Notes: generated by a model from the letters alone, not told the origin. 64,000 bases of DNA from Clostridiaceae bacterium BRH_c20a (GCA_000961765.1 LADT01000006.1:1-64000), one strand, 5' to 3'; counted from the first letter of the stretch, positions 17,331-46,545 are shown. Numbers and translations are program-made.

Positions 17331-17828
17331 ATGGAAAATAAGAAACAGTCTTTATTCTTTTCTTTTCTCGATAAATTTGAAGATTATTCTGTGACTGCGT
17401 TATATTTGGTTATGGTAGTAGTCATCTTTTTGCAGGTATTTTTTCGGTTTGTGATTAAGGCTTCTCTGCCTTGGTCGGAAGAATTAGCCCGCTATATTAT
17501 GGCCTGGGCTGTATTTATAGGTGCCAGTATCGCTGCCAAAGAAGGTGCTCATATAGGCATTGATTCTATCGTGAGCAGATTGCCTAAAAAGGTTGAACAG
17601 TATATTAGAACATTTGCTATGGCTCTTTCTTTTTTATTTTCAGTAGTACTGGTCTATTTAGCAGTTTTAGTTATTCAGTTTTTAATGAAAACAGGGCAAA
17701 AAACGCCGGCTATGATGATTCCCATGTGGATTGCATATTTTTCAGTTTTATTTGGCTCAGTGTTAATGAGTATCCGGTTTTGCCAAGCAACATACTTGAA
17801 ATTTAAAGATGGAAAGGGGCTGCAATAG
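17331..17828 (+). CDS. dctQ: TRAP transporter small permease DctQ
   Basis: 165 residues from ATG 17331 with GGAGGAG upstream (a longer frame from 17307 has none). Four membrane helices, with PWSEELARYIMAWAVFIGAS, the family signature, near residues 50-70. Pairs with DctM for Na+-driven uptake of an organic acid delivered by DctP. The stop is followed at once by the dctM start. Confidence 0.93.
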   Translation: MENKKQSLFFSFLDKFEDYSVTALYLVMVVVIFLQVFFRFVIKASLPWSEELARYIMAWAVFIGASIAAKEGAHIGIDSIVSRLPKKVEQYIRTFAMALSFLFSVVLVYLAVLVIQFLMKTGQKTPAMMIPMWIAYFSVLFGSVLMSIRFCQATYLKFKDGKGLQ

Positions 17829-19112
17829 ATGCTTTCAGCTCTACTTTTTGGATTGTTTGCCCTATTAGTTATCTTAAGTGTACCAATTGCAATCAGTATA
17901 GGTTTGGCAACAGTTCTTGCAATTTATTTTACGGATGTAGTAAAACTTCAGGTAGTAGCTCAGAAAATGTTTACTGCTGTTGATTCCTTTCCACTGATGG
18001 CAGTTCCTTTTTTTATGATTGCGGGTGTAATTATGGAAAAAGGGGGAATTTCCAAAAGATTAATTCGTTTTGCAAATTCCTTAATTGGTACATTGCCTGG
18101 TGGTTTAGCCTTAGTTGCAATATTGGCCTCTATGTTTTTTGCAGCTATATCCGGTTCTTCGCCAGCAACTGTAGTAGCAATAGGCTCTATCATGATTCCA
18201 GCAATGGTCAAAAATGGATATAAAGAGGATTTTGCTACAGCAACCCAAGCTAGTGCTGGATACATAGGGGTAATTATTCCTCCTAGTATCCCAATGATAA
18301 CTTATGGTGTTGTAACCGGGGTTTCTATTGGTGGTTTGTTTATGGGTGGTTTTATTCCAGGAATACTTATTGGTGTTTCACTAGGAATAGTTGCATTTCT
18401 TACTGCCAAGAAAAATAATTACCGTGGACTTGAACAAACAATTTCCCTTAAAGAAGTATGGACTTCATTTAAAGATGCAATATGGGCTATACTAATGCCG
18501 GTTATCATTCTAGGTGGTATATATGGTGGGATATTTACGCCAACAGAGGCCGCTAATATAGCTGTAGTATATGGATTAATAATTGGTTTATTTGTTTATA
18601 AAGAATTAAGCTTTAAGGACCTTCCTGCATTAATCCGACAAGCTGCGATAAGCAGTTCCTTAGTTTTGTTAATTGTTTCTACTGCTTCAGCCTTTGGCTT
18701 AATTTTAACGCGGGAAATGATTCCTGTTACAGTTGCTAATTTCCTAATTAGCATCACAGACAATCCCTTATTTTTATTAATGATTCTTAATGTTCTACTG
18801 TTGGTTGTAGGAACATTTATGGAAACAAATGCCGCTATTATTATCCTAGCACCCATTTTATTCCCAGCTATTGTTAAGGTTGGAATAGATCCTTTACATT
18901 TCGGAATAATTATGGTTGTTAACTTAGCTATTGGGATGATTACGCCGCCACTAGGAGTTAATTTATTCGTTGCTGCAAGTATGAGGAAAATGCCAATGGA
19001 GAAAGTTGTTAATGCTAACTGGTGGTATTTAGCTGCATCAATTGCTGCATTAATGGTTATCACTTACTTCCCAGGATTAACACTTTGGTTGCCAAGCTTA
19101 CTATCAAGATAA
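17829..19112 (+). CDS. dctM: TRAP transporter large permease DctM
   Basis: 427 residues, about 12 membrane helices, the usual length. ISGSSPATVVAIGS, PPSIPMITYGVVTG and ITPPLGVNLFVA are conserved DctM stretches. ATG directly follows the dctQ stop, so the two are translationally coupled. The substrate-binding partner DctP lies not beside it but three genes downstream, after the oxidase genes. Confidence 0.95.
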   Translation: MLSALLFGLFALLVILSVPIAISIGLATVLAIYFTDVVKLQVVAQKMFTAVDSFPLMAVPFFMIAGVIMEKGGISKRLIRFANSLIGTLPGGLALVAILASMFFAAISGSSPATVVAIGSIMIPAMVKNGYKEDFATATQASAGYIGVIIPPSIPMITYGVVTGVSIGGLFMGGFIPGILIGVSLGIVAFLTAKKNNYRGLEQTISLKEVWTSFKDAIWAILMPVIILGGIYGGIFTPTEAANIAVVYGLIIGLFVYKELSFKDLPALIRQAAISSSLVLLIVSTASAFGLILTREMIPVTVANFLISITDNPLFLLMILNVLLLVVGTFMETNAAIIILAPILFPAIVKVGIDPLHFGIIMVVNLAIGMITPPLGVNLFVAASMRKMPMEKVVNANWWYLAASIAALMVITYFPGLTLWLPSLLSR

Positions 19113-19137
19113 TTTAATTTAGAAATAGGTGAAAATA

Positions 19138-20529
19138 ATGGTTGATAATAGGCTGATTGATGAACTACGACAAATAGTAGGAAATGAAAATATTTTAACA
19201 AGTAAAATATCATTGGAAACATATTCTTTTGATGCATCTCCTTATTCTGGTCGGCCTAGTGTTGTTGTTTTTCCCACAACTACAGAAATGGTTGCGAATA
19301 TCGTGAATATAGCAAATAAGAACGATATACCTTTAATGCCCAGAGGTGCAGGTTCATGTTTAAGTGGTGGAGCGATTGCCCCTGATGGAAGCATTGTGAT
19401 CTCCCTTACTAAGATGAACAACATTTTGGAGATTGATCCATTATCAAAAATAGTCCTAGTTGAACCTGGAATAACAAATAAACAGGTGCAGTTGGCGGTT
19501 GAACAGTATGGATTAATGTATGCACCTGACCCAGCAAGTCAAAACATATCAACTATTGGTGGAAATATTGCTGAAAATGCGGGCGGAATCCGCGGAGTAA
19601 AATATGGCTCTACGAAGGACCATATTTTAGGGCTAGAAGTAGTTTTACCTACAGGTGATGTAATAACTACTGGAAATATTCATTCTCAGGTGGAGCCTGA
19701 ACTTGATTTAACATATTATTTTTGTGGTTCTGAGGGAACCTTAGGTATAGTAACTAAGGCCTGGTTAGCATTATCACCAATTAATCCTGAAGTAAAAACA
19801 ATGACAGCTATTTTTGGCAGTTTAGAGGATGCTGGCTCTTGTGTGGCTGAGATTATTGCCAAAGGTGTGGTTCCAACAACGATGGAAATCATGGATAATA
19901 CTGTAATTAAAGCGGTGGATGACTACCTTAAACTGGGTTTTCCTAGAGATGCAGAAGCTCTATTGTTATTAGAAATTGATGGTTTTCCATCTGATGTAAA
20001 AACTCAGGTAAATAGTATTATAAATGCCTTCGCCTCTAATCATGCCCTTAGCTATAAAATAGCTGGTAATGAACAGGAAAGGCTAGACTTATGGAAAGCC
20101 CGCAGGTCAGTCAATGGAGCACTAGGAAAACTAAAACCTGCCAATATAGTCCATGATATTGTAGTTCCTAGAGATAGGTTAGCGTTAATGCTGGAAAAAG
20201 TTGCACAGATGGCTAAAAAATATGGAATTATTATTGGACAAGTTGCTCACGCTGGTGATGGCAATTTGCATCCTACCCTTTACTATGATCATCGGATTCC
20301 TGAAGAAGTTGAAATTGTAGAAGAAGCTTGTGATGAAATAATTAAAGAGACAATTGCTCAAGGTGGAACAATTTCCGGTGAACATGGTATTGGTATCGAA
20401 AAATTAAAATATATGCCATTGGCTTTTAGCAAGCCAACTCTAAATTTAATGAAAAATATTAAAGATGCTTTTGATCCCAAAAATATTTGTAATCCGGGTA
20501 AACTTTTACCTCAGATCACAGAGGATTGA
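19138..20529 (+). CDS. glcD: FAD-binding 2-hydroxyacid oxidase/dehydrogenase, GlcD type
   Basis: 463 residues from ATG 19138 (AGGTGA upstream). The FAD-binding PCMH domain shows PRGAGSCLSGGAI and TIGGNIAENAGG, and the C-terminal oxidase domain shows QVAHAGDGNLHPT and GGTISGEHGIGIEKL. GlcD-type proteins oxidise glycolate, lactate or longer 2-hydroxyacids to 2-oxo acids and pass electrons through GlcF. Followed closely by a GlcE-like second FAD protein and GlcF. The LarA-like and PanB-like genes downstream suggest a larger hydroxyacid than glycolate; that is inference. Confidence 0.92.
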   Translation: MVDNRLIDELRQIVGNENILTSKISLETYSFDASPYSGRPSVVVFPTTTEMVANIVNIANKNDIPLMPRGAGSCLSGGAIAPDGSIVISLTKMNNILEIDPLSKIVLVEPGITNKQVQLAVEQYGLMYAPDPASQNISTIGGNIAENAGGIRGVKYGSTKDHILGLEVVLPTGDVITTGNIHSQVEPELDLTYYFCGSEGTLGIVTKAWLALSPINPEVKTMTAIFGSLEDAGSCVAEIIAKGVVPTTMEIMDNTVIKAVDDYLKLGFPRDAEALLLLEIDGFPSDVKTQVNSIINAFASNHALSYKIAGNEQERLDLWKARRSVNGALGKLKPANIVHDIVVPRDRLALMLEKVAQMAKKYGIIIGQVAHAGDGNLHPTLYYDHRIPEEVEIVEEACDEIIKETIAQGGTISGEHGIGIEKLKYMPLAFSKPTLNLMKNIKDAFDPKNICNPGKLLPQITED

Positions 20530-20542
20530 GGAGGTAGTATAT

Positions 20543-21742
20543 ATGGAAAACACAGAGTTTTTACGAAGTTTACGCGCAGAAGTAAATAATATATCTACCG
20601 CTATCAACCCAAGTGATTTGGATATTAATCTTGAACAAAACTATAACCCGCAGTTAGTTCTAACTCCAAATAGTATTGGTGAAATTGTTTCAATTGTGAA
20701 ACTAGCTAATAAATATGGAGTGCCTGTATATCCCATTGGGAGTGGTTCAAAGTTTTCAAAAGGAATATCTCCTTTTGATGAGGGTGTATTAGTTTCTTTA
20801 AAAAACCTCAATAAGGTAATTGAGTACCGTCCAGATAATATGAGTATCGAAGTTGAGGGTGGGTTGCCTATTAATGAATTGCAGAGAATGTTAGCAAAGG
20901 ATAATATCTTCTTTCCTATTGATGCTTCCAACGACTTGCAAACAATTGGAGGTTTAATCGCCACAAATGCTTTTGGACGGAAAAAATACATGTATAAAAC
21001 TACCCGATTTTATGTCATGGGTATGGAATTTATTTCCCCTCAAGGAGAAATTATTAAAGTAGGGGGGAGAACTATTAAAAATGTTAGCAGCTATGATGTG
21101 CACCAATTGCTAGCTGGCTCTTGGGGAACCTTAGGGATAATTACCAAGGCTACATTGCGTGTTAAACCTGTCCCTGAAAAGGGAATAGTTTTAGGGTATG
21201 TTGCCAAGAATGGTAATGAACTCTTAAAGGTTATTGATTCAATTTTATACAAAGAAAAGTTAAGTTTAGCCTCCTTAACCTTTGAACAATTGGATTCTGG
21301 TTTTTTAATCAAGCTAGAATTAGAAGGCTTTGCAGAAACGTTAAAATTACAACAGGAACTGCTTCAGTGTAAATACGGTTTTTCGGAGTCGAGCTATGGC
21401 TTTGCTGATATAGATAATGCACATGGAATAATTGCTCTACCTCTAAAATCCTATTTAAAGGGTCTTGGAAAACTTTTAGAACATAATAGTGGTGATAAAG
21501 ATATAAAGATAAGAGGCAATGCAACCTCTGGTCTATTATCATTTAATACCAATGCCAGTAGGGACATGTTACAAAATATAGCCGACAGTATTAATACTTT
21601 ACAGGGAACTTTCGTTTTTGGGAACCACTCACTAACGGAAAAAAACAGAGGACTTGCTTATAACCATCTAATTAGGAATATTAAAAATAAAATGGATCCT
21701 AATCATATATTAGTTCCTGCAAGTAAGGTAATGAGGGAGTAG
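20543..21742 (+). CDS. glcE: FAD-binding subunit, GlcE type
   Basis: 399 residues from ATG 20543 with GAGGAGG upstream; a longer frame overlapping glcD lacks one. It has the PCMH FAD domain (VYPIGSGSKFSKG, LQTIGGLIATNAFG, SYDVHQLLAGSWGTLG) but a shortened C-terminal part ending KMDPNHILVPA, as in GlcE. It probably forms a complex with the flanking GlcD and GlcF. Start lies 13 bases after glcD; glcF starts 6 bases after its stop. Confidence 0.88.
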   Translation: MENTEFLRSLRAEVNNISTAINPSDLDINLEQNYNPQLVLTPNSIGEIVSIVKLANKYGVPVYPIGSGSKFSKGISPFDEGVLVSLKNLNKVIEYRPDNMSIEVEGGLPINELQRMLAKDNIFFPIDASNDLQTIGGLIATNAFGRKKYMYKTTRFYVMGMEFISPQGEIIKVGGRTIKNVSSYDVHQLLAGSWGTLGIITKATLRVKPVPEKGIVLGYVAKNGNELLKVIDSILYKEKLSLASLTFEQLDSGFLIKLELEGFAETLKLQQELLQCKYGFSESSYGFADIDNAHGIIALPLKSYLKGLGKLLEHNSGDKDIKIRGNATSGLLSFNTNASRDMLQNIADSINTLQGTFVFGNHSLTEKNRGLAYNHLIRNIKNKMDPNHILVPASKVMRE

Positions 21743-21748
21743 GTTGCG

Positions 21749-22999
21749 ATGAAAAAGGATGAACTTTTAAAAATATTAATGAACTGTAACCGTTGTGGTA
21801 TGTGTCAGGAAGTATGTCCTACCTACAGGGTTTCCCATATTGAAGCAAATGTTGCCCGAGGCCGCAACCGCTTAATTCGCCTTGCTTTGGAAAACCAACT
21901 TAACCTGGATAAAGAACCAGAAGTGGAAAAAATTATTAACGAATGTTTGCTTTGTAAGGCTTGTGAGGATAGTTGTCCATCAGGAGTACCAACACCAGAA
22001 ATAATTGCAAGCATACGAGCCCATTACACAAATACTAAAGGGTTACCTCTTGGGAAAAAGATTATGTATAGAGGGGTCTTTTCAAATAATAAAACTATTA
22101 GTTTAGTGAGAAACCTTGCTTGGATCTATCAAAAGTGTGGTATAAATAAATTAGTGAAATTTACTGGCTTATTTAATAAAACTGATGAAATGCTGCCTAA
22201 TCTTCCGCCTAAAAATGTTCGTTCTCAGCTACCTGTATTATTAAAAGTTTTACCCAATGCTGACCATAGAGTGGCATACTTCTTGGGTTGTTCAGTAAAT
22301 AACTTTTTTAGTAGTATAGGGGTAGCTTCTATTAAAGTGCTTCAGGAAAATAATTGTGATGTAATTGTTCCGGAAGTGAACTGCTGTGGTGCTCCTCACC
22401 ATAGTGCTGGAGACATGGAGGAATTTAAAAGGCTGGCAAAAAATAATTTAAGAATGCTAAATGATTTGGATGTAGAAGCTATTATTTTTGATTGTTCTAC
22501 CTGTGGATCTGTAATTAAGGACTACGAAAACCTATTTACTGGTGATGAAGAATACGAAAAAATTGCAGCACAGGTTGCTGAGAAAGTACAAGATATCAGT
22601 TCTTATTTAATTAGTATAGATTTTAATAAAAATATGGGAACCATTTCAAAGAAGGTTACTTATCATGACCCTTGTCATGGTATAAGATTTTTAAAAGTTA
22701 AAGATGCTCCTAGAGAAATATTAAAGAGCATTCCTGGGCTTGAGTTGATTGAAATGCAGGAAGCTGATATGTGTTGCGGAGGTGCTGGCTCTTATGGTAT
22801 TTTTAATCCTAAGCTTTCCAGAGATATTTTAGCTAGAAAGATGGAGAATTTTAAAAATACACAGGCCGATATCCTGGCAACATCCTGTCCTGCATGTACT
22901 ATGCAGCTATCTTTTGGAATGAAGATTCATAACTTAAATTGTTCAGTAAAGCATCCTGTGGAGCTCCTTGTTCAAGCCTATGAAATAAAAAGCCTATAA
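21749..22999 (+). CDS. glcF: Iron-sulfur subunit, GlcF type
   Basis: 416 residues. Two ferredoxin motifs near the start (CNRCGMCQEVCPTYR and CLLCKACEDSCPSG) bind two 4Fe-4S clusters. Two CCG domains follow: NCCGAPHHSAGD, then DPCHGIRF with CCGGAGSYG. Such subunits pass electrons from the flavin subunits to a quinone or another carrier. Sixth-frame alternatives are shadows. Gene order glcD-glcE-glcF with tiny gaps supports one complex. Confidence 0.93.
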   Translation: MKKDELLKILMNCNRCGMCQEVCPTYRVSHIEANVARGRNRLIRLALENQLNLDKEPEVEKIINECLLCKACEDSCPSGVPTPEIIASIRAHYTNTKGLPLGKKIMYRGVFSNNKTISLVRNLAWIYQKCGINKLVKFTGLFNKTDEMLPNLPPKNVRSQLPVLLKVLPNADHRVAYFLGCSVNNFFSSIGVASIKVLQENNCDVIVPEVNCCGAPHHSAGDMEEFKRLAKNNLRMLNDLDVEAIIFDCSTCGSVIKDYENLFTGDEEYEKIAAQVAEKVQDISSYLISIDFNKNMGTISKKVTYHDPCHGIRFLKVKDAPREILKSIPGLELIEMQEADMCCGGAGSYGIFNPKLSRDILARKMENFKNTQADILATSCPACTMQLSFGMKIHNLNCSVKHPVELLVQAYEIKSL

Positions 23000-23038
23000 A
23001 ATTATAAGCTTTTTATATAAAAAAAAGGGGGAAGAATT

Positions 23039-24079
23039 ATGAAGAAAAGGAATTTAAGAATTCTGGCAGTACTGATTATGGTAATTTTTGCCGTAACACT
23101 CTTTGTCGGTTGTGCCAAGAAAGAAGAACCCAAGCAAGAACCAGGAAAGGAAGCACCAGCACCAAAAGTTGAACAGATTGTCCTAAAAGCTGCTAGTACA
23201 CCACCTGCTGATCATCCTTATAATTTAGGGCTGGTTGAATTTGGTAAGTTATTAACTGAAAGAACTAATGGTAAATATGTGGTAGAAACATTCCCAGCTT
23301 CACAATTAGGTTCAGAGCGGGAAGCTATTGAAGGTGTACAAATGGGTACTATCGACCTGAGTGTTGTTTCTACAGCACCTCTAGCTGGTTTTTCTGATGC
23401 TTTCTTAGTAACAGATCTGCCCTTTATGTTTAAGGATTATAACCATGTCTACAAGGTATTAGATGGTGAAATCGGCCAGGGAATAATGAAAAATCTCGAA
23501 GGCACTGGTTTAGTTGGTATGGCATTTTGGGATAATGGTTTCCGTAACATTACTAATTCCAAAAGAGCTATTATGACACCAGAAGACATGAAAGGTATTA
23601 AGATTAGAACTATGGAAAACCAAATCCATATGGACTCCTTTAAACAAATAGGTGCTGATCCTACTCCAATGGCTTTTGGTGAGCTCTTTACCGCATTACA
23701 GCAAAAAACTGTTGATGGCCAGGAAAATCCCCTGCCAATCATATCTACTTCTAAATTTGACGAAGTACAAGATCATTTAGCACTGACTGGTCATTTCTAC
23801 GCTCCTGCACCACTTTTAATGAGCCAAGCTTTATGGGATAAATTAAGTGCTGAAGAAAAAGTAATTTTCCAAAAAACAGCTAATGATGCTCGCGATATTG
23901 AACGTAAAATGATTACTGATATGAATGAAAAATTGGTTGGTGAATTAAAAGCAAAAGGTATGCAAGTAACAGAGCCAGATAAGGCATTATTTCAAGAAGC
24001 AATGGCTCCTGTGTATGATAAGTGGCAAGATAAAGTTGGTAAAGATTTAATTGATAAAGTTAGAGCAGCTGGTAACTAA
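23039..24079 (+). CDS. dctP: TRAP transporter substrate-binding lipoprotein DctP
   Basis: 346 residues, AAAAGGGGG upstream. A signal peptide ends in the lipobox TLFVGC, then a short charged linker and the DctP fold. LGSEREAIEGVQMGTIDLSV and the Arg-containing KGIKIRTMENQIHMD are family features; the Arg usually pairs with the substrate carboxylate. It should feed DctQM encoded upstream. Its place behind the oxidase genes and before the racemase ties transport and metabolism into one operon. A hairpin after it may lower downstream expression. Confidence 0.93.
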   Translation: MKKRNLRILAVLIMVIFAVTLFVGCAKKEEPKQEPGKEAPAPKVEQIVLKAASTPPADHPYNLGLVEFGKLLTERTNGKYVVETFPASQLGSEREAIEGVQMGTIDLSVVSTAPLAGFSDAFLVTDLPFMFKDYNHVYKVLDGEIGQGIMKNLEGTGLVGMAFWDNGFRNITNSKRAIMTPEDMKGIKIRTMENQIHMDSFKQIGADPTPMAFGELFTALQQKTVDGQENPLPIISTSKFDEVQDHLALTGHFYAPAPLLMSQALWDKLSAEEKVIFQKTANDARDIERKMITDMNEKLVGELKAKGMQVTEPDKALFQEAMAPVYDKWQDKVGKDLIDKVRAAGN

Positions 24080-24097
24080 ACAAATTACAACTTAGAT

Positions 24098-24122
24098 GAG
24101 CAGGGAATAATCCCTGCTCTTC
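24098..24122 (+). terminator. Hairpin after dctP, weak terminator
   Basis: GAGCAGGGA pairs with TCCCTGCTC around ATAA but has only a short T-poor tail, so it may act as a partial terminator or mRNA 3' stabiliser. Confidence 0.5.
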
Positions 24123-24185
24123 TAAAATTATGTTACGGACCAGGGATTCTCAAAATTATAGTTTTGACAAAAGGAGTGATTAATT

Positions 24186-25478
24186 ATGCGGCAATTTACT
24201 CTTAAATACGCCAAAGGAAATGTTTCATTTGAAATTCCTGAGGAACATTTATTACATGAAGTATTAGGTTCTGATTATCCGGCCCTTGATGATTTGCAGG
24301 GTGTATATCAATATGCACTTGACCATCCTATTGATTCTCCGCCACTGAGAGAGATAGTAAAAAAAGGTGAGAGAGTTGCTATTACTGTCAGTGATATTAC
24401 AAGAGCTTGGCAAAAAAATTATTTAACTTTGCCAATTCTTATTAATACTCTTAATGAAGCAGGTGTACCTGACGAAAATATCACAATAATTATTGCTGTA
24501 GGTGGCCATCGTCAAAATACTGAAAAAGAGTTTATTGAGCTTTGTGGTGAAGAGGTTTATAATCGTGTAAAAATTGTTAATCATGATGCTTGGGATACTG
24601 AAAACATGGTTTATTATGGGAAAACCAGTAGAGGGACAGAAGTATCTATAAATAGAATAGTTGCTGAAGCAGATAGAGTTATTTTAACAGGTGGCATTAT
24701 TTATCATTATATGGTTGGCTACGGCGGCGGCCGAAAAAGTATTATGCCCGGTGTTGCTTCAATCAAAACTATTCAACAAAGCCATCTTTGGGCATTAGGA
24801 CCAAATTTAGGGTCAGGCTCTAATCCTAGGTCAGCTTCAAAATACACTAGAGGTAATGAATGCCATGAAGATATGACGGAAGTAGCAGCCTTTGCACAGC
24901 CCGATTTCTTAGTAAATATTGTTCCTAATCCCCAAGGAGATATTTCCGGTGTTTTTGCAGGCAACTGGATATCTGCATGGGTAGAAGGTACCAAATTAAT
25001 TGATAAGATATATGGTATAGAAATTAAAGAAGAGGCTGATATTGTAATTGCTACAGCTGGTGGCTACCCAAAAGACATTAATTTATACCAAACAGGAAAA
25101 ACTATGGATAATGCATTTTATGCTATGAAAAAAGGCGGGGTATCCATAATTATTTCCGAATGCCCTGATATAATGGAACCTCAAGAATTTACCCAATGGT
25201 TTAAGCATGAAACATTCTTTGAACTCGAAAAAGCATTAAGGGAGAACTTTACTATTCCCGGGTGGGTTGCCTTCAAAGAAGTTGAGTGCAGTGAAAAAGG
25301 AACATTTATTCTGCTAACAAAAGAAGAAAACTATGATTTCGCTAGAAAAGCAAAGATGATTCCAGTTTCTAATATGGAAGATGCTTTAAAAATAGCCTAT
25401 GAAAAATGTGGTACAACAAGTCCCAAAATTACTGTAATGCCCCAGGGAGCTAATACCTTCCCCATACTAACCAAATAG
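24186..25478 (+). CDS. larA: LarA-type nickel-dependent 2-hydroxyacid racemase/epimerase (DUF2088)
   Basis: 430 residues, AAAGGAGTG upstream. The key LarA residues are visible at the same numbers as in the lactobacillus enzyme: His 108 in GGHRQNTEKE, His 174 in IIYHYMVGYGGG, Lys 184 in GGGRKSIMPG (covalent link to the nickel-pincer cofactor) and His 200 in QQSHLWALGP. The superfamily racemises or epimerises lactate, malate and other 2-hydroxyacids. The substrate here is probably the TRAP-imported hydroxyacid that GlcDEF oxidises. LarB, LarC and LarE for cofactor synthesis are not in the window. The family call is firm, substrate unknown. Confidence 0.88.
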   Translation: MRQFTLKYAKGNVSFEIPEEHLLHEVLGSDYPALDDLQGVYQYALDHPIDSPPLREIVKKGERVAITVSDITRAWQKNYLTLPILINTLNEAGVPDENITIIIAVGGHRQNTEKEFIELCGEEVYNRVKIVNHDAWDTENMVYYGKTSRGTEVSINRIVAEADRVILTGGIIYHYMVGYGGGRKSIMPGVASIKTIQQSHLWALGPNLGSGSNPRSASKYTRGNECHEDMTEVAAFAQPDFLVNIVPNPQGDISGVFAGNWISAWVEGTKLIDKIYGIEIKEEADIVIATAGGYPKDINLYQTGKTMDNAFYAMKKGGVSIIISECPDIMEPQEFTQWFKHETFFELEKALRENFTIPGWVAFKEVECSEKGTFILLTKEENYDFARKAKMIPVSNMEDALKIAYEKCGTTSPKITVMPQGANTFPILTK

Positions 25479-25514
25479 ATAAATTATATTAAAAAATCCA
25501 GGAGGCTGATTTAA

Positions 25515-26402
25515 ATGAGTACATGGACTAAACCTGCAAAAGAATCTTCACCAAGGAAAAAAGTAACGATTCACACTCTTTTCGAAAAAAAAGCTAAAGG
25601 CGAGAAAATTACATTTTTAACCGCCTATGACTACCCAACAGCTGTTATAGAAGATAAAGTGGGCATTGATTTAATTCTAGTTGGTGATTCATTGGGTATG
25701 TGTGTGTATGGCTTTGACAGTACCTTACCGGTAACAATGGATATGATGGTTAACCACTCAAAAGCAGTGAGAAAAGGAGCACCTAATTCCTTTGTTATTG
25801 GGGATATGCCGTACATGTCTTATCAAATTTCAACTGAAGAAGCAGTTAGAAATGCTGGTAGACTTATGCAGGAAGCTGGCGTTGATGGTGTGAAACTTGA
25901 AGGTGGCGTAGAGATGGTTGACATTATCAAAGCAATAACCCGGGCTGGGGTACCAGTAATGGGTCATATCGGCTTAACACCTCAATCAGTATCGATGTTA
26001 GGCGGCTTTAAAGCCCAAGGTAGAGACGTTTCTGCAGCTCTTAAGTTGATCGATGATGCCAAGGCTTTAGAAGAAGCTGGTTGTTTTGCCATTCTTTTAG
26101 AGGCTATCCCTGCAGAAGTTGGTCAGATTATTACTGAAAGAAGCAATATCCCCATCTTAAGCATAGGTGCTGGTCAATACTGTGATGGTCAAGTTTTGGT
26201 TGTTCATGATGCATTAGGTTTCTTTGGTGGTCATGTTGCTAAGTTTGTTAAGCAATATGCCAATATGAATGAACAAATTGAAGAAGCATTAACTAAGTAT
26301 AAAGAGGAAGTAGAACAGGTAATTTTCCCAGGTCCGGAACATTGCTATAAAATAAAAGAAGATGAATTAGCTAAACTAAAAGAAGCTTTAGAAAATAGAT
26401 AA
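25515..26402 (+). CDS. panB: PanB family (ketopantoate hydroxymethyltransferase-like), copy 1
   Basis: 295 residues with AGGAGG upstream, including a 15-residue extension before the usual start. Classical PanB transfers the one-carbon unit of methylene-tetrahydrofolate to 2-oxoisovalerate. Mg ligands Asp 58 (VGDSLGM) and Asp 97 (IGDMPYMSY), Glu 129 (KLEGG) and catalytic Glu 196 (LLEAIP) are kept, as are GHIGLTPQS and SIGAG. No panC, panD or panE is nearby and it closes a hydroxyacid catabolic operon, like copy 2 at 50639. I therefore suspect reverse aldol cleavage of a 4-hydroxy-2-oxo acid. A normal PanB role remains possible. Confidence 0.88.
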   Translation: MSTWTKPAKESSPRKKVTIHTLFEKKAKGEKITFLTAYDYPTAVIEDKVGIDLILVGDSLGMCVYGFDSTLPVTMDMMVNHSKAVRKGAPNSFVIGDMPYMSYQISTEEAVRNAGRLMQEAGVDGVKLEGGVEMVDIIKAITRAGVPVMGHIGLTPQSVSMLGGFKAQGRDVSAALKLIDDAKALEEAGCFAILLEAIPAEVGQIITERSNIPILSIGAGQYCDGQVLVVHDALGFFGGHVAKFVKQYANMNEQIEEALTKYKEEVEQVIFPGPEHCYKIKEDELAKLKEALENR

Positions 26403-26452
26403 ATAAACAAAGCCTCTTATCATTTTATGGTAGGAGGTTTTGTTTATTTTTT
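26400..26452 (+). terminator. Terminator of catabolic operon 1
   Basis: AATAAACAAAGCCTC pairs with GAGGTTTTGTTTATT, followed by T-rich sequence. Confidence 0.75.
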
Positions 26453-28724: not shown

Positions 28725-28813
28725 GCCGGGGTGGCGGAACTGGCAGACGCACAGGACTTAAAATCCTGCGGGCCTTAAAGCCCGTACCGGTTCGATTCCG
28801 GTCCCCGGCACCA
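28725..28813 (+). tRNA. tRNA-Leu (TAA), copy 1
   Basis: 89 bases with long variable arm (GCGGGCCTTAAAGCCCGT), acceptor GCCGGGG/CCCCGGC, anticodon TAA in ACTTAAAATC, CCA encoded. Six bases after tRNA-Cys. Confidence 0.96.
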
Positions 28814-28846
28814 TAATTTATTATTGCTGAAAATTACTTTTAACTC

Positions 28847-28875
28847 TTGCAGACAAGATATTTCTCTGGTAAAAT
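28847..28875 (+). promoter_or_regulatory. Promoter within the tRNA-Leu spacer (first copy)
   Basis: TTGCAG, 17 bp, TAAAAT; 25 bases later tRNA-Leu copy 2 begins. The same promoter is repeated 176 bp downstream at 29023-29051. Confidence 0.8.
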
Positions 28876-28900
28876 ATTAAAAGTAAATAACAATTGTTTT

Positions 28901-28989
28901 GCCGGGGTGGCGGAACTGGCAGACGCACAGGACTTAAAATCCTGCGGGCCTTAAAGCCCGTACCGGTTCGATTCCGGTCCCCGGCACCA
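28901..28989 (+). tRNA. tRNA-Leu (TAA), copy 2
   Basis: Identical to copy 1 over all 89 bases, CCA included. Confidence 0.96.
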
Positions 28990-29076
28990 TAATTTATTAT
29001 TGCTGAAAATTACTTTTAACTCTTGCAGACAAGATATTTCTCTGGTAAAATATTAAAAGTAAATAACAATTGTTTT

Positions 29077-29165
29077 GCCGGGGTGGCGGAACTGGCAGAC
29101 GCACAGGACTTAAAATCCTGCGGGCCTTAAAGCCCGTACCGGTTCGATTCCGGTCCCCGGCACCA
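29077..29165 (+). tRNA. tRNA-Leu (TAA), copy 3
   Basis: Identical to copies 1 and 2. Its 3' end and the terminator behind it are echoed at 30931 and 33828. Confidence 0.96.
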
Positions 29166-37669: not shown

Positions 37670-38719
37670 TTGTATATTTTAAGAAATAAAGGGTTATTTA
37701 GAATTTTATTAATATTTTTATTCTTGGCTCTGGTAATGACTTTTTCTGCCTGTAGTAAGGAAGATAGTGACCCGGAGAAAACAGAGCAACCAGTCGAAAA
37801 AGAAAAACCAACTCTGGTCTTTGCTGATGCTGGCTGGGATAGTATCCAGTTTCATAACTATGTTGCACAGCTTATTGTTGAAAATGGCTTCGGCTATAAA
37901 ACCGATACCATGTCGGGTTCTACCCCGATAACTGTGGCAGGACTTATTAAAGGTGACATCGATATATATATGGAAATGTGGACTACTAATGTTGCTGAGA
38001 CATATTATCCAGCCATTGATAGTGGTGAAGTAGTTGAACTTTCTACTAATTTTGATGATAATGCTCAGGGACTTTATGTACCTACCTACATGATTAAAGG
38101 TGATTCCGAAAGAGGTATAGCGCCTATGGCTCCGGAGTTAAAAAATATAATGGATTTACCTAAGTACTGGGAATTATTTAAAGATCCTGAAGGACCATCT
38201 AAGGGACGGATTTTTGGTGCAATTCCTGGTTGGGCAGTAGACGCAATGTTGAGTGAGAAGCTCATTAACTATGGTATAAATGATACTTACAATTATGTTA
38301 GTCCTGGCTCAGATACAGCCTTAGCCACCTCTATGGTTAAAGCTTATGAAAAAGGAGAACCCTGGGTGGGTTACTATTGGGAGCCTACTTGGATAATGGG
38401 AAAATTGGATATGACGCTATTAGAAGATGAAAAATACAGTGATGAATTGTGGAATGATGGGTACAGAAGTGAATTTCCTCCTGTCCCCTGTACGGTAGCT
38501 GTACACAAAGATATTCCTGAAATAGCCCCTGATGTTGTGGATTTTCTCAAAAACTATGAAACAAGCAGTGCTCTGACTAGTGAAGCCTTGGCTTATATGC
38601 AGGATAATGAAGTAACCCCTTTAGAAGCAGCTAAATGGTTTTTGCAGGAGCATGAGGAATTGTGGACAAAATGGGTATCTGCGGAAGTTGCTGATAAAGT
38701 AAAAACAGCAGTTAGGTAA
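37670..38719 (+). CDS. Glycine betaine/choline-type ABC transporter substrate-binding lipoprotein
   Basis: 349 residues from TTG 37670 with AAGGAGG upstream. A signal peptide ends in the lipobox MTFSAC. The mature OpuAC-type domain shows FADAGWDSIQFHNYVAQ, GDIDIYMEMWTTN, PGWAVDAMLSEK and YYWEPTWIMG; the Trp residues probably form the cation-binding aromatic cage. It works with the permease and ATPase genes that follow. Probably brings in a quaternary amine such as glycine betaine for osmoprotection or as a methyl source; the choice is open. Confidence 0.88.
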   Translation: MYILRNKGLFRILLIFLFLALVMTFSACSKEDSDPEKTEQPVEKEKPTLVFADAGWDSIQFHNYVAQLIVENGFGYKTDTMSGSTPITVAGLIKGDIDIYMEMWTTNVAETYYPAIDSGEVVELSTNFDDNAQGLYVPTYMIKGDSERGIAPMAPELKNIMDLPKYWELFKDPEGPSKGRIFGAIPGWAVDAMLSEKLINYGINDTYNYVSPGSDTALATSMVKAYEKGEPWVGYYWEPTWIMGKLDMTLLEDEKYSDELWNDGYRSEFPPVPCTVAVHKDIPEIAPDVVDFLKNYETSSALTSEALAYMQDNEVTPLEAAKWFLQEHEELWTKWVSAEVADKVKTAVR

Positions 38720-38726
38720 AGATTAA

Positions 38727-38764
38727 GTACAAGTAGTTGTTTTTTTCACAACTACTTGTCTGTG
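38727..38764 (+). terminator. Hairpin between binding-protein and permease genes
   Basis: AAGTACAAGTAGTTGT pairs with ACAACTACTTGT, followed by CTGTGTTTT. Probably reduces read-through so that more binding protein than permease is made. Confidence 0.55.
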
Positions 38765-38797
38765 TTTTAAATCATAAAAAGAAATGGTGTGAAATAT

Positions 38798-39649
38798 ATG
38801 AGTGAATTCCCTGATTTTTTAAGATTTGAAATTGGAATTTATGTGGACAATTTTGTAAAGTGGCTGATGCATAACCATGGTGAATTTTTTGATGCAATTT
38901 CTAAGGGGATTTTATGGTTTCTTTTAAATATAGAAAAGTTCTTATTATGGTTACCTTGGTGGTTAGCCTTAGTGCTGATTTTTATAATTGGCTGGAGATC
39001 AAAAAACTTAAGAAATGGTCTAACCTTTACGTTTTTGATATTTATAGTCGGGACCTTTGGGCTTTGGGATTATATGATGATGACCTTAGCTATCGTTTTG
39101 ACATCTGTTTTTATATCCCTTTTATTAGGTATTCCAATGGGGATTTTTATGGCTTATAGTTCCAGGCTAAATATCATAATGCGACCAATTCTAGATGGGA
39201 TGCAGACTATGCCTAGTTTCGTATACTTGATTCCAGCCTTGATGTTATTTGATATGGGGAAGGTTCCGGCGATTTTTGCTACTACGATTTATGCAATTCC
39301 TCCGGTATTAAGATTAACTGATTTAGGAATACGTAGGGTGCCTAAAGAAATGGTAGAAGCCGCCCATTCCTTTGGTTCTTCTAGTTGGCAGACCTTAACT
39401 AAAGTTCAATTACCACAAGCCCTGCCGACTATTATGACAGGTATTAACCAGACTACAATGATGGCGTTAGCCATGGTTGTAATTGCTTCTATGATTGGTG
39501 CTAAAGGACTTGGTTTAGAGGTTTTAAAGGCCATTCAACATATAGATATAGCCCGTGGTTTTGAAGCAGGAATAAGTATCGTTTTCTTAGCAATAATTAT
39601 CGACAGGGTATCCCAGGGGATTGCTAATCGTTTTAAGTATCCTGAATAG
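38798..39649 (+). CDS. Glycine betaine-type ABC transporter permease
   Basis: 283 residues from ATG 38798 (GGTGTG upstream; a GTG at 38789 is possible). Six or so helices and the BPD_transp_1 core with the EAA-type loop VEAAHSFGSSSWQTLTKVQL. PSFVYLIPALMLF is typical of ProW/OpuAB. Twenty-odd bases separate it from the ATPase gene, forming one unit with the upstream lipoprotein. Confidence 0.92.
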   Translation: MSEFPDFLRFEIGIYVDNFVKWLMHNHGEFFDAISKGILWFLLNIEKFLLWLPWWLALVLIFIIGWRSKNLRNGLTFTFLIFIVGTFGLWDYMMMTLAIVLTSVFISLLLGIPMGIFMAYSSRLNIIMRPILDGMQTMPSFVYLIPALMLFDMGKVPAIFATTIYAIPPVLRLTDLGIRRVPKEMVEAAHSFGSSSWQTLTKVQLPQALPTIMTGINQTTMMALAMVVIASMIGAKGLGLEVLKAIQHIDIARGFEAGISIVFLAIIIDRVSQGIANRFKYPE

Positions 39650-39663
39650 GAGATGTATAAAAA

Positions 39664-40836
39664 ATGGGAATAAAAGTTAAAGTTGAAAATGTAACTAAAA
39701 TTTTTGGTAGAAACCCTAAGTCTATACTGCCTAAAATAAAAAAAGGTACTTCAAAAGAAACAATTTTAGCTGAAACAGGTCATGCTGTAGGTGTTAACAA
39801 TGTTTCATTTGAGGTTAATAAGGGAGAAATATTTGTAATTATGGGTTTATCGGGTAGTGGCAAATCTACACTTATTAGATGTTTAAATCTTCTTAATAAG
39901 CCTACTGAAGGAAAGATATTTATTGATGGTGAGAATATTATTGACTACGATAATAAGCAGCTCAAAGAATTTAGACAAAAGAAGGTTGCAATGGTTTTTC
40001 AGCATTTTGGTCTTTTTACCCATAGAACGGTACTAAATAACGTAGTGTATGGCTTGGAGATAAGGGGTATACCTGAAGAGGAAAGATATGAAATTGCTAG
40101 AAAGACTTTAGCTAGTGTAGGGCTCGAAGGCTGGGAAGATAAATATCCTAATCAACTTAGCGGCGGGATGCAGCAAAGGGTGGGCTTGGCTAGGGCCTTA
40201 GCTAATGACCCTGATATTTTATTAATGGATGAACCTTTTAGCGCATTAGACCCCTTAATTAAGAGAGAAATGCAGCAAGAGCTTTTAGATATTCAGTCTA
40301 GGCTTAAAAAAACAATTATTTTTATCACCCATGATATCAATGAGGCATTTAAGTTAGGTGAACGGGTAGCCATCATGAAAGATGGGATTATAGAGCAAAT
40401 TGATACCCCTGATGAAATTCTTGCTGCCCCTAAAAATGAATATATAAAAAACTTTGTCCGAGATATTGATAGATCTAAAATTTTACAAGCTAAAAACATA
40501 ATGTTTAAACCATCTGCTTTAGTATCTATTAAAGACGGATTAAAAATTGCCATCAAGGAGATGGAACAAAGCGGTATATCCAGTATATTTGTCGTAGATA
40601 CTGATCGAAAATTATTAGGGCTTATAACAATTGATGATGCCCTAAAAGCCTTAAAAGAAAATCATAAGTTAAAAGATATTCTAATACATGATTATTTTAC
40701 TACAGGACCGGAAACTTATATTCAAGAATTAATTCCCATGGCAACAGAAAGCAAATACCCTATTGCGGTGATGGATGAGGAAAATAGGCTTTTGGGAATT
40801 ATAGTCAGGGTTTCTGTTCTCTCAAATTTAGTTTAA
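39664..40836 (+). CDS. Glycine betaine-type ABC transporter ATPase with CBS pair
   Basis: 390 residues, AGGAGA upstream. ABC ATPase (about 40-265): P-loop GLSGSGKST, LSGGMQQRVGLARAL, Walker B ILLMDEPFSALDP. Two CBS domains (about 275-390) follow, as in OpuAA/ProV, where they sense ionic strength. IFGRNPKSILP near the start is family specific. A terminator follows. Confidence 0.94.
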   Translation: MGIKVKVENVTKIFGRNPKSILPKIKKGTSKETILAETGHAVGVNNVSFEVNKGEIFVIMGLSGSGKSTLIRCLNLLNKPTEGKIFIDGENIIDYDNKQLKEFRQKKVAMVFQHFGLFTHRTVLNNVVYGLEIRGIPEEERYEIARKTLASVGLEGWEDKYPNQLSGGMQQRVGLARALANDPDILLMDEPFSALDPLIKREMQQELLDIQSRLKKTIIFITHDINEAFKLGERVAIMKDGIIEQIDTPDEILAAPKNEYIKNFVRDIDRSKILQAKNIMFKPSALVSIKDGLKIAIKEMEQSGISSIFVVDTDRKLLGLITIDDALKALKENHKLKDILIHDYFTTGPETYIQELIPMATESKYPIAVMDEENRLLGIIVRVSVLSNLV

Positions 40837-40840
40837 ATTT

Positions 40841-40870
40841 AATGCCTTGGAGTTTATCTCCAAGGCATTA
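40841..40870 (+). terminator. Terminator of the betaine transporter operon
   Basis: AATGCCTTGGAG pairs with CTCCAAGGCATT around TTTAT, with A/T-rich tail but few T. Confidence 0.6.
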
Positions 40871-40958
40871 AAGATTAACAGACATAGTTCCAATCCTAAC
40901 GAGTATAAATTTGTATTATATGGTAAAAAATACCTGAAAGAATAGGAGATGATGGACT

Positions 40959-42323
40959 ATGAATTTGACAACTTTAGAAGAGGCTATAAATTTAACTGAA
41001 AAAGAGGTAAAAGAACTGCATCGAGAATATCTAAATCCAGGTTTAGTTTCCCTAATGAGTCTGATAGGGTTTGATAAAGTTTATTCTTCGGGAGAAGGGT
41101 CTATTGTTCGAGATATAAAGGGCAAAGAATATATTGATTTTTTAGGAGGATATGGATCATTAAATCTTGGACATAATCCTTCAGAGGTCTTTTCAGCACT
41201 AGAAAAAGTAAAAAGTATACCCAATATTTTACAGGCTTCTTTAGGAAGTTTAGCAGCCGTCCTTGCTAAAAATCTAGCTCTAATTGCTCCAGGTGATTTA
41301 AAAAGGTCTTTTTTTTGTAATAGTGGCGCAGAGGCAGTAGAGGGAGCCTTAAAATTAGCTAGGATAGCATCTAAGAAAGAGAAAATTATTTATTGTGAAG
41401 GTTCTTTTCATGGAAAAACTTTAGGGGCCCTATCTGTTACCGGAAGGGAAAAATATAAAAAACATTTTCAACCCTTAATTCCAAACTGTCAAGCTGTTCC
41501 TTTTGGTGATATTAATAGCCTTGAATCAGCAATTAAAAATAAAGATTGCGCAGCCTTTATTATGGAATGCATTCAGGGTGAAGGGGGTATTATTGTACCA
41601 CCGGAAGGATACCTTAAAATGGTTCAAGACCTCTGTCTAAAATATGATGTTTTATTAATTATAGATGAAATTCAAACAGGCTTAGGACGCACAGGTAAAA
41701 TTTTTGCTTGTGAATATGAAGATGTAGTTCCAGATATAATGTGTTTAGCCAAGTCATTAGGAGGCGGCATCATGCCTCTCGGTGCCTATATAACTAATGA
41801 AAGAATTTATAAAAATGCCTATGGGGGGATGGAGAAAGCTCTCTTGCATACATCAACTTTTGGCGGAAACTCCCTAGCCTGTGCAGCCGGTATTGCTGCT
41901 CTAAAGTCTATTATTGATGGCAACCTTACTGCAGAGGCACTAAATAAAGGCAACTATCTTATCAGTGAATTAAAAATATTAAAGAATAATTATGGGCTCA
42001 TCAAGGATGTCAGAGGAAAAGGTCTTATGATTGGTCTTGAATTATCTGGTTCAAATAATAGTTTGCTTAATAGGTTATCAGGTGGTACCTTGGAATCATT
42101 GGCAAATGAATATTTTGCATCTTTTTTGGCAGGCAAACTACTAAATGATTATCAGATAATAACTGCGTATACTTTGAATAATCCCAATGTGATCAGAATT
42201 GAACCTCCTTTAACCATAGAGTATAAACACTTAGACAGGCTCCTTTTAGCTTTGGAGGATATTCTAAAAAATCATCAAAGCTTTATTAAAATGGCTTTTG
42301 CCAATATCAAAAACGTTTTTTGA
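40959..42323 (+). CDS. Class III aminotransferase, putrescine aminotransferase type
   Basis: 454 residues; TAGGAGATG upstream of the ATG. PLP Lys in CLAKSLGGGIMPLGAY; FFCNSGAEAVEGALKLAR, GSFHGKTLGAL and LLIIDEIQTGLGRTG are class III hallmarks. The N-terminal 70-residue extension before DIKGKEYIDFLGGYGSLNLG and the length fit putrescine aminotransferase (YgjG/PatA) rather than ornithine or acetylornithine enzymes. This fits the polyamine operon elsewhere in the window. Alternatives are other omega-amino acid aminotransferases. Confidence 0.85.
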   Translation: MNLTTLEEAINLTEKEVKELHREYLNPGLVSLMSLIGFDKVYSSGEGSIVRDIKGKEYIDFLGGYGSLNLGHNPSEVFSALEKVKSIPNILQASLGSLAAVLAKNLALIAPGDLKRSFFCNSGAEAVEGALKLARIASKKEKIIYCEGSFHGKTLGALSVTGREKYKKHFQPLIPNCQAVPFGDINSLESAIKNKDCAAFIMECIQGEGGIIVPPEGYLKMVQDLCLKYDVLLIIDEIQTGLGRTGKIFACEYEDVVPDIMCLAKSLGGGIMPLGAYITNERIYKNAYGGMEKALLHTSTFGGNSLACAAGIAALKSIIDGNLTAEALNKGNYLISELKILKNNYGLIKDVRGKGLMIGLELSGSNNSLLNRLSGGTLESLANEYFASFLAGKLLNDYQIITAYTLNNPNVIRIEPPLTIEYKHLDRLLLALEDILKNHQSFIKMAFANIKNVF

Positions 42324-42460: not shown

Positions 42461-42483
42461 ACAAGAATATGGGATGTGAAATA

Positions 42484-43248
42484 GTGAAAAAAAATAATAA
42501 AGTCATAGTCCAATCAGTAGATAGAGCATTGTCGATTTTGCAGGTTTTTGCTCAGCACGAGGAGTTAGGTGTAACGGAAATTAGTAAACTAATAAATTTA
42601 AATAAAAGTACTACATATGGTTTACTTAGTACTTTGTTTGAAAAAGGATATGTTGATAAAAAGCCTAATGGCAAATACTGCTTAGGCCTTATTTTATTAG
42701 AATTGGGGCAGTATGTACAAAATCGGTTAGATGTTAGAAGTACTGCCAGACCTTTATTAGAAGAATTATGTGAAAAATATGATGAAACCATTCACCTTGT
42801 ATTGTGTAACAGGGGTGAGGTTTATTATGTAGACAAAGTTGAAAGTGCGAGAAGTATTGTTAATATAACTCAGGTTGGTAAAAAGGTAGCTTTGCACGCT
42901 TCCTCAGTTGGCAAAGCTATTCTTGCTTATATGCCTGTGGAAGAGCAGGAGCGAGAGTTAGCATTACCCCTAAAACAATATACAACATATACCATAACTA
43001 ATCCTAACGAATTGCGGGAACACTTAAGCTTAGTTAAGGAAAATGGCTATGCCCTGGATATGGAGGAAATTGAATTAGGTATTAGATGTTTAGGAGTACC
43101 AATAAGAAATTATACCGGCGAAGTGATTGGAGCCTTTAGCTGCTCTGCTCCTGCCACTAGAGTAAGTAGTGAAAAACTTAATGAAATAATTGTGGCAGTA
43201 AAGGATACTGCCACAAATGTATCGAGGAAATTAGGGTATAAAATTTAA
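42484..43248 (+). CDS. IclR family transcriptional regulator
   Basis: About 254 residues from GTG 42484 (weak GGGATGTG upstream); an ATG at 42469 in the same frame lacks a site. The winged HTH is at about 8-65 ([37 protein letters not shown]). The effector domain at about 80-250 shows [19 protein letters not shown] and [17 protein letters not shown]. IclR proteins bind small organic acids. It sits just behind its operator candidate and is followed by fhs 44 bases later, so it may control the flanking catabolic genes. Confidence 0.93.
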
Positions 43249-43292
43249 TTATTGTGTGCCCTTATTATATATTATTTAAGGAGGAAATTAAG

Positions 43293-44972
43293 ATGACATT
43301 TAAGAGTGATATTGAAATTGCCCAGGAGTCTGAGTTGCAGGTTGTTAATGAGATTGCTGATAAGTTGGCAATACCAGACAAGTACGTGGAAAACTACGGT
43401 AAATACAAAGCTAAAATTGATTATAAGATTTTAGAAGACTTAAAAGATAAGCCAAATGGTAAATTGGTATTAGTAACAGCAATAAATCCTACACCAGCTG
43501 GCGAAGGTAAGACTACAACAACTGTTGGATTAGGTGACGCTTTAATGAAATCCGGCAAAAGAACTGTTATTGCTTTAAGAGAACCATCTTTAGGTCCTGT
43601 TTTTGGAGTAAAAGGAGGAGCTGCCGGTGGTGGATATGCCCAGGTAGTTCCTATGGAAGATATTAACCTGCATTTTACCGGTGATCTTCATGCTATGGGT
43701 ACAGCCAATAACCTTTTAGCTGCCCTAATCGATAACCATATCCATCAAGGTAATAGGTTAGGAATTGATGCTAGAAAAATCACCTGGAAACGGGCAGTAG
43801 ATATGAATGATAGACAGCTTAGATATATTGTCAGTGGTTTAAACGGTAAGGCTAATGGAGTACCACGGGAGGATGGCTTTGATATTACTGTAGCCTCCGA
43901 GATAATGGCGATTCTTTGCTTATCTAAAGATATAGATGATCTTAAAGAGAGAATTTCAAGAATAGTAATAGGCTATACATATGATGATAAGCCTGTTACT
44001 GCTGCGGAACTAAATGCACAAGGTGCACTTGCTGCTCTCTTAAAAGATGCTTTAAAGCCAAATCTGGTCCAAACCTTAGAACATACCCCTGCTTTTATCC
44101 ATGGCGGACCTTTTGCTAATATTGCCCATGGATGTAACAGTGTTATGGCTACTAGAATGGCTTTAAAACTCAGTGATTACACTGTAACCGAAGCTGGTTT
44201 TGGTGCTGACTTAGGGGCAGAAAAATTTATTGATATAAAATGTCGGATGGCAGGTTTAGCTCCTGATGTGGTAGTAATTGTTGCTACGATAAGAGCTTTA
44301 AAACATCATGGCGGTTGTCCAAAGGCTGAACTCGGAACAGAAAATCTAGAAGTATTAGAAAAAGGTTTACCTAATCTATTAAAGCATATTCATAATATAA
44401 CTAAAGTATTTGGTTTACCGGCAGTGGTAGCTATTAACAGATTCCCGACTGATACAGAGAAAGAATTAGAATTAGTATACTCTAAGTGTAAAGAATTGGG
44501 CGTAAATGTTGCCTTGTCAGAGGTTTGGAGCAAAGGCGGTGACGGCGGAAAGGAATTAGCCCAAGAAGTAATCCGCCTTGCAGAAGAAAAAACAAATACC
44601 TTCACCTTTAGTTACGAAGCAGAAAATGGTATCAAAGAAAAAATTGAAGCAATTGTAACTAAGGTTTATGGTGGTAATGGAGTACAATATTCCAATAATG
44701 CTCAAAAGGAAATTGCGCAACTAGAAGCTTTAGGTTATGGAAAATTGCCTATCTGTATGGCAAAAACCCAATATTCCTTCTCGGACGATCCCGGAAAATT
44801 GGGGGCGCCTTCAGATTTTAAAGTAAGTATTAGTAAGGTTAAGGTTTCTGCAGGAGCAGGATTTTTGGTAGTATTAACTGGAGATATTATGACTATGCCT
44901 GGTTTACCTAAAGTTCCTTCCGCTGAGAAAATTGATATTGATAATAGCGGAAAGATTTCCGGCTTATTCTAA
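43293..44972 (+). CDS. fhs: Formate-tetrahydrofolate ligase
   Basis: 559 residues from ATG 43293 with AAGGAGG upstream. Joins formate and tetrahydrofolate with ATP, or makes ATP from 10-formyl-THF in reverse. [18 protein letters not shown] is the ATP-binding loop; [20 protein letters not shown] and [17 protein letters not shown] are strongly conserved. Normal length. It lies behind iclR rather than with folD or other folate genes, and in the same region as the ilvD-pdxA2-panB operon, fitting a role in handling one-carbon units from catabolism. Confidence 0.96.
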
Positions 44973-44993
44973 AATTTATCCAATCGTATAAGA

Positions 44994-45085: not shown

Positions 45086-45087
45086 TA

Positions 45088-46522: not shown

Positions 46523-46545
46523 AATGCACAAAAGGAGTGGGATTT

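Follow-up and report, generated by a model that had tools for sequence, protein, structure and literature searches.

Operon 1, a run of eight genes at 17331-26402 on the + strand of a 64,000-nucleotide stretch of DNA from Clostridiaceae bacterium BRH_c20a (LADT01000006.1:1-64000, hereafter the window, which belongs to a 4.5-Mb draft genome), is predicted, with a probability that we put at about 0.55, to break down a 2,4-dihydroxy acid anaerobically, with retro-hydroxymethyl transfer to folate by a PanB-family enzyme at the end. The genes, all eight in one direction, are dctQ-dctM-glcD-glcE-glcF-dctP-larA-panB, the last being termed panB1, and the features of the unit are as follows.

17331-17828, + strand: dctQ, small TRAP permease (Pfam DctQ, 5.6e-35; an alternative in-frame ATG at 17307 is possible)
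17829-19112, + strand: dctM, large TRAP permease (TIGR00786, above cut-off)
19129-20529, + strand: glcD-type FAD subunit of a 2-hydroxy-acid dehydrogenase (TIGR00387, 480.7 bits; glycolate-oxidase cut-off 567.9)
20546-21742, + strand: glcE-type FAD subunit (Pfam FAD_binding_4; top family scores under the equivalog cut-offs)
21749-22999, + strand: glcF-type iron-sulfur/CCG subunit (LdhH C-terminal part best, 6.5e-90, then GlpC and GlcF; all under cut-off)
23039-24079, + strand: dctP, TRAP solute-binding lipoprotein (TIGR00787, above cut-off)
24186-25478, + strand: larA, nickel-pincer 2-hydroxy-acid racemase of the LarAH10 (hydrophobic 2-hydroxy-acid racemase) family (NF052525, 633.9 bits; cut-off 540)
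25515-26402, + strand: panB1, PanB-family hydroxymethyltransferase (TIGR00222, 333.5 versus 207.6; PF02548, 377.8 versus 28.7)
26403-26447, + strand: terminator-like hairpin, a 20-pair stem plus T-run directly 3′ of panB1

With intergenic spacing of 0-106 bp and a 20-pair hairpin and T-run after it, panB1 is the last gene of the unit. A first-pass annotation of the window had placed the eight genes in this order and single direction, with dctP lodged among the metabolic genes and panB last, and all eight are confirmed at the coordinates given, Pfam and NCBIfam agreeing with it on their families and the hairpin closing the unit behind panB. Its remark that pantothenate genes are lacking also holds for the run, panC and panD being a pair on another contig that has no adjacent panB. 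The residues that it had singled out are likewise in place: LarA carries His108, His174, Lys184 and His200 of the nickel-pincer nucleotide site, and the metal and catalytic positions of PanB, seven in number, are kept in panB1 as the aligned equivalents of E. coli D45, S46, D84, K112, E114, H136 and E181. Since the three Glc subunits score under the glycolate-oxidase equivalogs (GlcD 480.7 against 567.9, GlcE 106.1 against 284 and GlcF 180.8 against 333), they are best named a GlcDEF-like 2-hydroxy-acid dehydrogenase.

As envisaged, the DctPQM TRAP transporter, all three subunits of which are present in the operon (Pfam, NCBIfam), would import the acid, and LarA, a nickel-pincer enzyme by both family and catalytic residues, would invert C2, making both isomers usable. 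The GlcDEF-like enzyme, clear as to family, would presumably oxidise the acid at C2, turning its hydroxyl into an oxo group, and PanB1, which has the family features and active site of a PanB, would convert the resulting 2-oxo-4-hydroxy acid and tetrahydrofolate (THF) to a shorter 2-oxo acid and 5,10-methylene-THF, the moiety moved being the terminal hydroxymethyl. A C4 acid, passing via 4-hydroxy-2-oxobutanoate, would give pyruvate. Methylene-THF would then flow into the Wood-Ljungdahl pathway, or to formate with a gain of ATP via formate-THF ligase (Fhs), and the genome encodes an acetyl-CoA synthase subunit of the former and a single Fhs. For synthesis of the nickel-pincer cofactor, the search covered LarC, a gene for which is on contig C74 (PF01969, 476 bits). 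LarA or Lar_N homologues occur at eight places in the genome, a named LarA group having been given to the window copy only.

The evidence that carries this reading is, in the first place, the company kept by PanBs of this type. For comparison, 21 canonical panBCD loci, 20 of them retrieved with extended flanks and one added, served as control, 38 extra PanBs were taken from multi-PanB genomes of relatives, and neighbours were counted in the 7.5 kb around panB. TRAP or hydroxy-acid genes are found within that distance of 28/38 extra PanBs versus 0/21 of those that are panBCD-linked, the genes in question being those for TRAP transporters, GlcDEF, LarA or sugar-acid dehydratases, and for TRAP/TTT transporters alone the counts are 20/38 versus 0/21 (p=2e-5). 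Of the 80 PanB1 homologues closest to it in GTDB genomes, 29 also have TRAP or hydroxy-acid genes within 7.5 kb. Within the flanks, larA is denser in the 0-3 kb next to panB than 6-10 kb away (16/515 versus 2/393 genes, p=0.004), and so are TRAP genes (p=4e-7). The surplus of uptake and hydroxy-acid genes around extra PanBs does not stem from the way in which the set was chosen.

In a tree of 154 PanB sequences, the 19 that are panC/D-linked form one group, and 111 others, among them panB1 and a further window copy, panB2, group as a clade with SH-aLRT 87. In that clade panC is found within 7.5 kb at a single locus, which was seen twice. The seven catalytic residues are intact in 133/133 PanBs without panCD linkage. 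Engineering of E. coli PanB has pointed to three positions of the acceptor pocket, I202, I212 and V214 (PMC7610986, PMC7611260). Here 21/21 canonical PanBs have I/V/V or I/I/V, and 103/133 of the non-panCD-linked ones have a pocket other than I/V/V (I/L/I, L/L/I, I/C/I, C/N/N and others); those with altered pockets look like working enzymes with a changed 2-oxo-acid preference. The genome has three PanBs, none of which adjoins panC or panD: panB1 (pocket I/V/V), panB2 at 50639-51499 of the window (I/L/I, bulkier) and a third on contig C81 (C/N/N), the latter two being additional to the one previously noted.

The grouping of genes in operon 1 is not due to chance. A genome of the same family (L052/L099) has the order dctP-dctQ-dctM-glcD-glcE-glcF-dctP-larA-panB, with 92% identity for panB and 84% for larA and, relative to the window operon, an extra, normal upstream dctP, no remnant of which was found in the window by tblastn. 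Sought in other genomes, as the first-pass annotation had suggested, larA-panB neighbours recur in Clostridia (L064, L067, L076, L100-L104) and, in the reverse order panB-larA, in Desulfobacterota (L109, L118, L123, L124, L131), glcD being present too in L052/L099. Orthologous panB1-larA pairs (PanB 82-85% identical) are accompanied by IlvD and/or UxaA dehydratases at L067, L076 and L100-L102, and in two Clostridiaceae metagenome-assembled genomes (L101, L102) a single cluster comprises a UxaA-type dehydratase, TRAP, larA, panB1 and an IlvD, the last sharing 81% identity with its counterpart in a second window cluster described below. At L056 there is an uninterrupted run of TRAP-GlcDEF-PanB-Fhs-FchA-FolD-formate transporter (FocA)-folate transporter (FolT), and at L084 a PanB is found with an Fhs-FchA-FolD-type one-carbon set like that of L056, plus a TTT transporter.

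The presence of PanB without PanC, seen in 12/150 related genomes, the majority with a completeness of 95% or more, is also pertinent. The genomes with panB-larA at L109, L118 and L131 likewise have PanB and no PanC match. In all of these, unless panC falls in an assembly gap, PanB cannot feed PanC. Of the pathway proposed in the first-pass annotation, what comparative genomics supports is a module of 2-hydroxy-acid import and oxidation that includes LarA, and a PanB outside pantothenate synthesis, for which the retro direction would be the simplest mode; the substrate and the activity are predicted.

As to the substrate, the likeliest to be cleaved by PanB1 is 4-hydroxy-2-oxobutanoate. Pantoate and D-erythronate are both 2,4-dihydroxybutanoates. 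The nearest solved relatives of DctP are 4pdd, 4p9k/4pak, 4pdh and 4nq8 (PDB sequence search, Foldseek), and it retains the ligand-binding Arg/Asn/acidic residues Arg169, Arg190, Asn230 and Glu93. The ligand is probably D-erythronate in 4pdd, 4pdh and 4p9k, and pantoate in 4pak and 4nq8. Pantoate and D-erythronate are the ligands ascribed to one group of TRAP binding proteins (PMC5812351, PMC11668362), and the solved relatives appear to belong to it. The LarAH10 of Megasphaera elsdenii, a member of the family whose NCBIfam cut-off the window LarA exceeds and which is tied to PanB here, racemises 2,4-dihydroxybutyrate among other acids (PMC11770544). In operon 1, with its oxidase and no dehydratase, it is 2,4-dihydroxybutanoate that would reach 4-hydroxy-2-oxobutanoate.

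The alternative that survives best, doubtful as we consider it, is degradation of pantoate, with the D- or L-form imported, interconverted by LarA and oxidised by GlcDEF to ketopantoate, from which PanB1 would generate 2-oxoisovalerate and methylene-THF. The canonical I/V/V pocket of PanB1 would suit it, as would the known pantoate/D-erythronate ligand class of TRAP binding proteins and the weak acceptance of 2-hydroxy-3,3-dimethylbutyrate by LarAH10-type enzymes (PMC11770544). However, close relatives pair orthologous PanB1-LarA with dehydratases that are unable to act on pantoate because its C3 is quaternary, and this association with IlvD and UxaA therefore favours C4 sugar acids and 4-hydroxy-2-oxobutanoate over pantoate. 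The changed, bulkier pocket of panB2 (I/L/I) also speaks against it. A possible ranking is 4-hydroxy-2-oxobutanoate first, pantoate second and a housekeeping role for PanB1 third.

A further alternative, in our estimation unlikely, is that PanB1 is the pantothenate PanB of its lineage, relocated behind a glycolate/lactate-type TRAP-GlcDEF-LarA operon where its position is a regulatory convenience or an accident. Several observations that weigh against a catabolic role are to be considered in this light. The genome of the window, where panC and panD have no adjoining panB, and those of relatives with the larA-panB type do have panC/panD, and a canonical-clade PanB was not identified in any of them; the L105 genome has, together with PanC, a sole PanB which is of panB1 type; and panB1, its active site canonical, keeps I202/V212/V214, a ketopantoate-type pocket that makes it an exception among non-panCD-linked PanBs. 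Because PanC is present without canonical PanB, and the sole PanB of L105 is of the PanB1 type, a double role extending to ketopantoate synthesis, for PanB1 or the C81 copy, is likely enough to be stated; in the window genome, one of the three PanBs probably has to supply ketopantoate as well. Also on the negative side, absence of panC in the extra-PanB set is partly built in, as multi-PanB genomes were chosen, and the enzyme activity on which the catabolic reading depends is predicted from genes, with acceptance of a 4-hydroxylated acid by GlcDEF being what we infer. Fhs/FolD-type genes, moreover, lie within 7.5 kb in 9/21 canonical panBCD loci; proximity of Fhs was accordingly dropped as a stand-alone proof of direction, and only full Fhs-FchA-FolD-formate-transporter sets are used. 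What tells against simple relocation is that the three PanBs of one genome are all in catabolic-looking clusters, that the association with hydroxy-acid genes is conserved across two phyla and in both gene orders, and that LarA-linked PanBs occur in genomes without a PanC match (L109, L118, L131).

Quite improbable is a route in which GlcDEF directly oxidises erythronate or threonate to 3,4-dihydroxy-2-oxobutanoate, from which PanB1 would produce methylene-THF and hydroxypyruvate. Operon 1 does have an oxidase without a dehydratase, and the D-erythronate class appears to be among the relatives of DctP, but the orthologous PanBs of relatives are accompanied by dehydratases, which take off the 3-hydroxyl before cleavage, and an enzyme for hydroxypyruvate was not noticed beside operon 1. 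That PanB runs forward as a one-carbon sink, with methylene-THF and a 2-oxo acid giving a 4-hydroxy-2-oxo acid for reduction and export, is hardly credible in spite of the location of some PanBs in MttB/corrinoid methyltransferase clusters (Sporomusa malonica, Ca. Formimonas), since an uptake system with a binding protein, a FAD/FeS oxidase and, in relatives, dehydratases and the Fhs-FchA-FolD-formate transporter set all fit breakdown better.

The second PanB cluster of the window, at 42469-51499 on the + strand, has a different complement of genes.

42469-43248, + strand: IclR-type regulator (from reading of the sequence; homologues precede panB in L059 and L079)
43254-44972, + strand: fhs, formate-THF ligase (NF010030, above cut-off; the single copy in the genome)
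45234-46427, + strand: class I aminotransferase (NCBIfam matches, none above an equivalog cut-off)
46537-48219, + strand: IlvD/Edd-family dehydratase (TIGR00110, 689 bits; cut-off 618)
48235-49518, + strand: DUF1537 acid-sugar kinase, nearest to D-threonate kinase (NF047819, 258.8 bits, below the cut-off of 450)
49519-50526, + strand: PdxA-family dehydrogenase (TIGR00557, above cut-off; nearest named models PdxA and D-threonate 4-phosphate dehydrogenase)
50639-51499, + strand: panB2 (TIGR00222, above cut-off; pocket I/L/I)

Here 4-hydroxy-2-oxobutanoate would arise by 2,3-dehydration of erythronate or threonate, both tetronates, or alternatively through a homoserine transaminase. IlvD homologues number five in the genome, the copy in this cluster included. 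The panB on contig C81 (L013 8912-11439) comes after an IlvD-type dehydratase gene and before two permease-like genes, near PocR/AraC-type regulators. In its case the ilvD-panB pairing may represent plain biosynthesis from 2-oxoisovalerate to ketopantoate, though its pocket reads C/N/N and its relatives at L065, L069 and L078 have sensor kinases and TRAP genes for neighbours. In the sister genome the second cluster further includes a LarA homologue and a gene for a folate transporter.

A broader proposition, on which the balance seems to us even, is that in many anaerobes PanB paralogues naturally run backwards, as C-C lyases that charge folate; 4-hydroxy-2-oxobutanoate would be the main substrate, and pyruvate and methylene-THF the products. 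Dihydroxy, trihydroxy and amino acids would be the inputs, via oxidation (GlcDEF, Ldh_2), dehydration (IlvD, UxaA) or deamination, and methylene-THF for acetogenesis, or formate plus ATP, the outputs.

With the ketopantoate hydroxymethyltransferase PanB (EC 2.1.2.11) there are shared the fold family, all catalytic residues and, in the case of PanB1, the acceptor pocket, whereas the window PanBs differ in having no panC/panD link, in their catabolic operons, in being extra copies and in the opposite direction proposed for them. In engineered E. coli, according to the account of Bouzon 2017 given in PMC6966089, the organism's own PanB splits 4-hydroxy-2-oxobutanoate (HOB) to pyruvate with the one-carbon unit going to THF. 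That synthetic pathway and the one proposed here would have in common the movement by PanB of the C4 hydroxymethyl of HOB to THF, with pyruvate left; the former is engineered, while here natural operons provide transport, a racemase and an oxidase or dehydratase. The parallel to serine hydroxymethyltransferase and glycine cleavage would be the splitting of a skeleton with transfer of one carbon to THF, feeding Wood-Ljungdahl, the difference being that those act on amino acids with pyridoxal phosphate or lipoate, and here hydroxy acids would be handled by a metal-dependent, class II-aldolase-like PanB. The DUF1537 kinase-PdxA2 pathways for D-threonate and D-erythronate have kinase and PdxA homologues in common with the second cluster, and the same C4 sugar acids are likely. 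However, the known DUF1537-PdxA2 route proceeds by phosphorylation, oxidation and decarboxylation, and neither PanB nor an IlvD-type dehydratase is known to be part of it.

The chemistry proposed for PanB1 is thus already known, and it is the natural, widespread operon context that appears new; no description of natural retro-PanB catabolism was found in searches of open-access papers, in agreement with the first-pass annotation, whose author knew of no described pathway with this set of genes. PanB is everywhere annotated as a vitamin-B5 enzyme, and most copies in the sampled anaerobes look catabolic. Automatic annotation would misassign such PanBs, and predictions of pantothenate synthesis from PanB alone would be wrong. 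If the broader proposition is true, 4-hydroxy-2-oxobutanoate, termed non-natural in the engineering literature and still so called in a 2026 paper (PMC13279387), would be a common natural intermediate. If the catabolic reading is true, hydroxy acids would have a direct entry to the folate one-carbon pool besides those of serine and glycine, and LarAH10 racemases would acquire a physiological setting. Natural enzymes would also become available for one-carbon engineering, in which E. coli PanB was forced into the role.

With regard to regulation, promoter matches in a scan were no more frequent than in shuffled sequence, and no riboswitch, for THF or otherwise, was found upstream of operon 1, Rfam giving tRNAs only in the window. 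Rfam was also run on seven related loci and gave no riboswitch at their PanB clusters, the matches there being a T-box leader far from panB (L053), tRNAs and pieces of group II introns. Elsewhere in the window, three tandem tRNA-Leu (TAA) genes with a 176-bp repeat period lie at 28725-29165 and, between the two PanB operons at 37670-42323, a gene for a class III aminotransferase comes after ABC transporter genes of the glycine-betaine type.

Other settings of PanB genes were encountered among the related loci. Some adjoin genes for MttB-family methyltransferases and corrinoid proteins, at L111 (Sporomusa malonica), L113 (Acididesulfobacillus acetoxydans), L127 and L141 (Ca. Formimonas warabiya DCMF), the genome of the last having eight PanBs. 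A 316-residue family without a Pfam match also adjoins PanB, at L074 (8452-9402), L083, L087, L136, L143, L171 and others, in Clostridia, Bipolaricaulota and Anaerolineae; one member weakly resembles peptidase U32, and a Glu/Leu dehydrogenase homologue is also present at some of these loci. At L112 and L116, panB1-like and panB2-like genes are directly adjacent.

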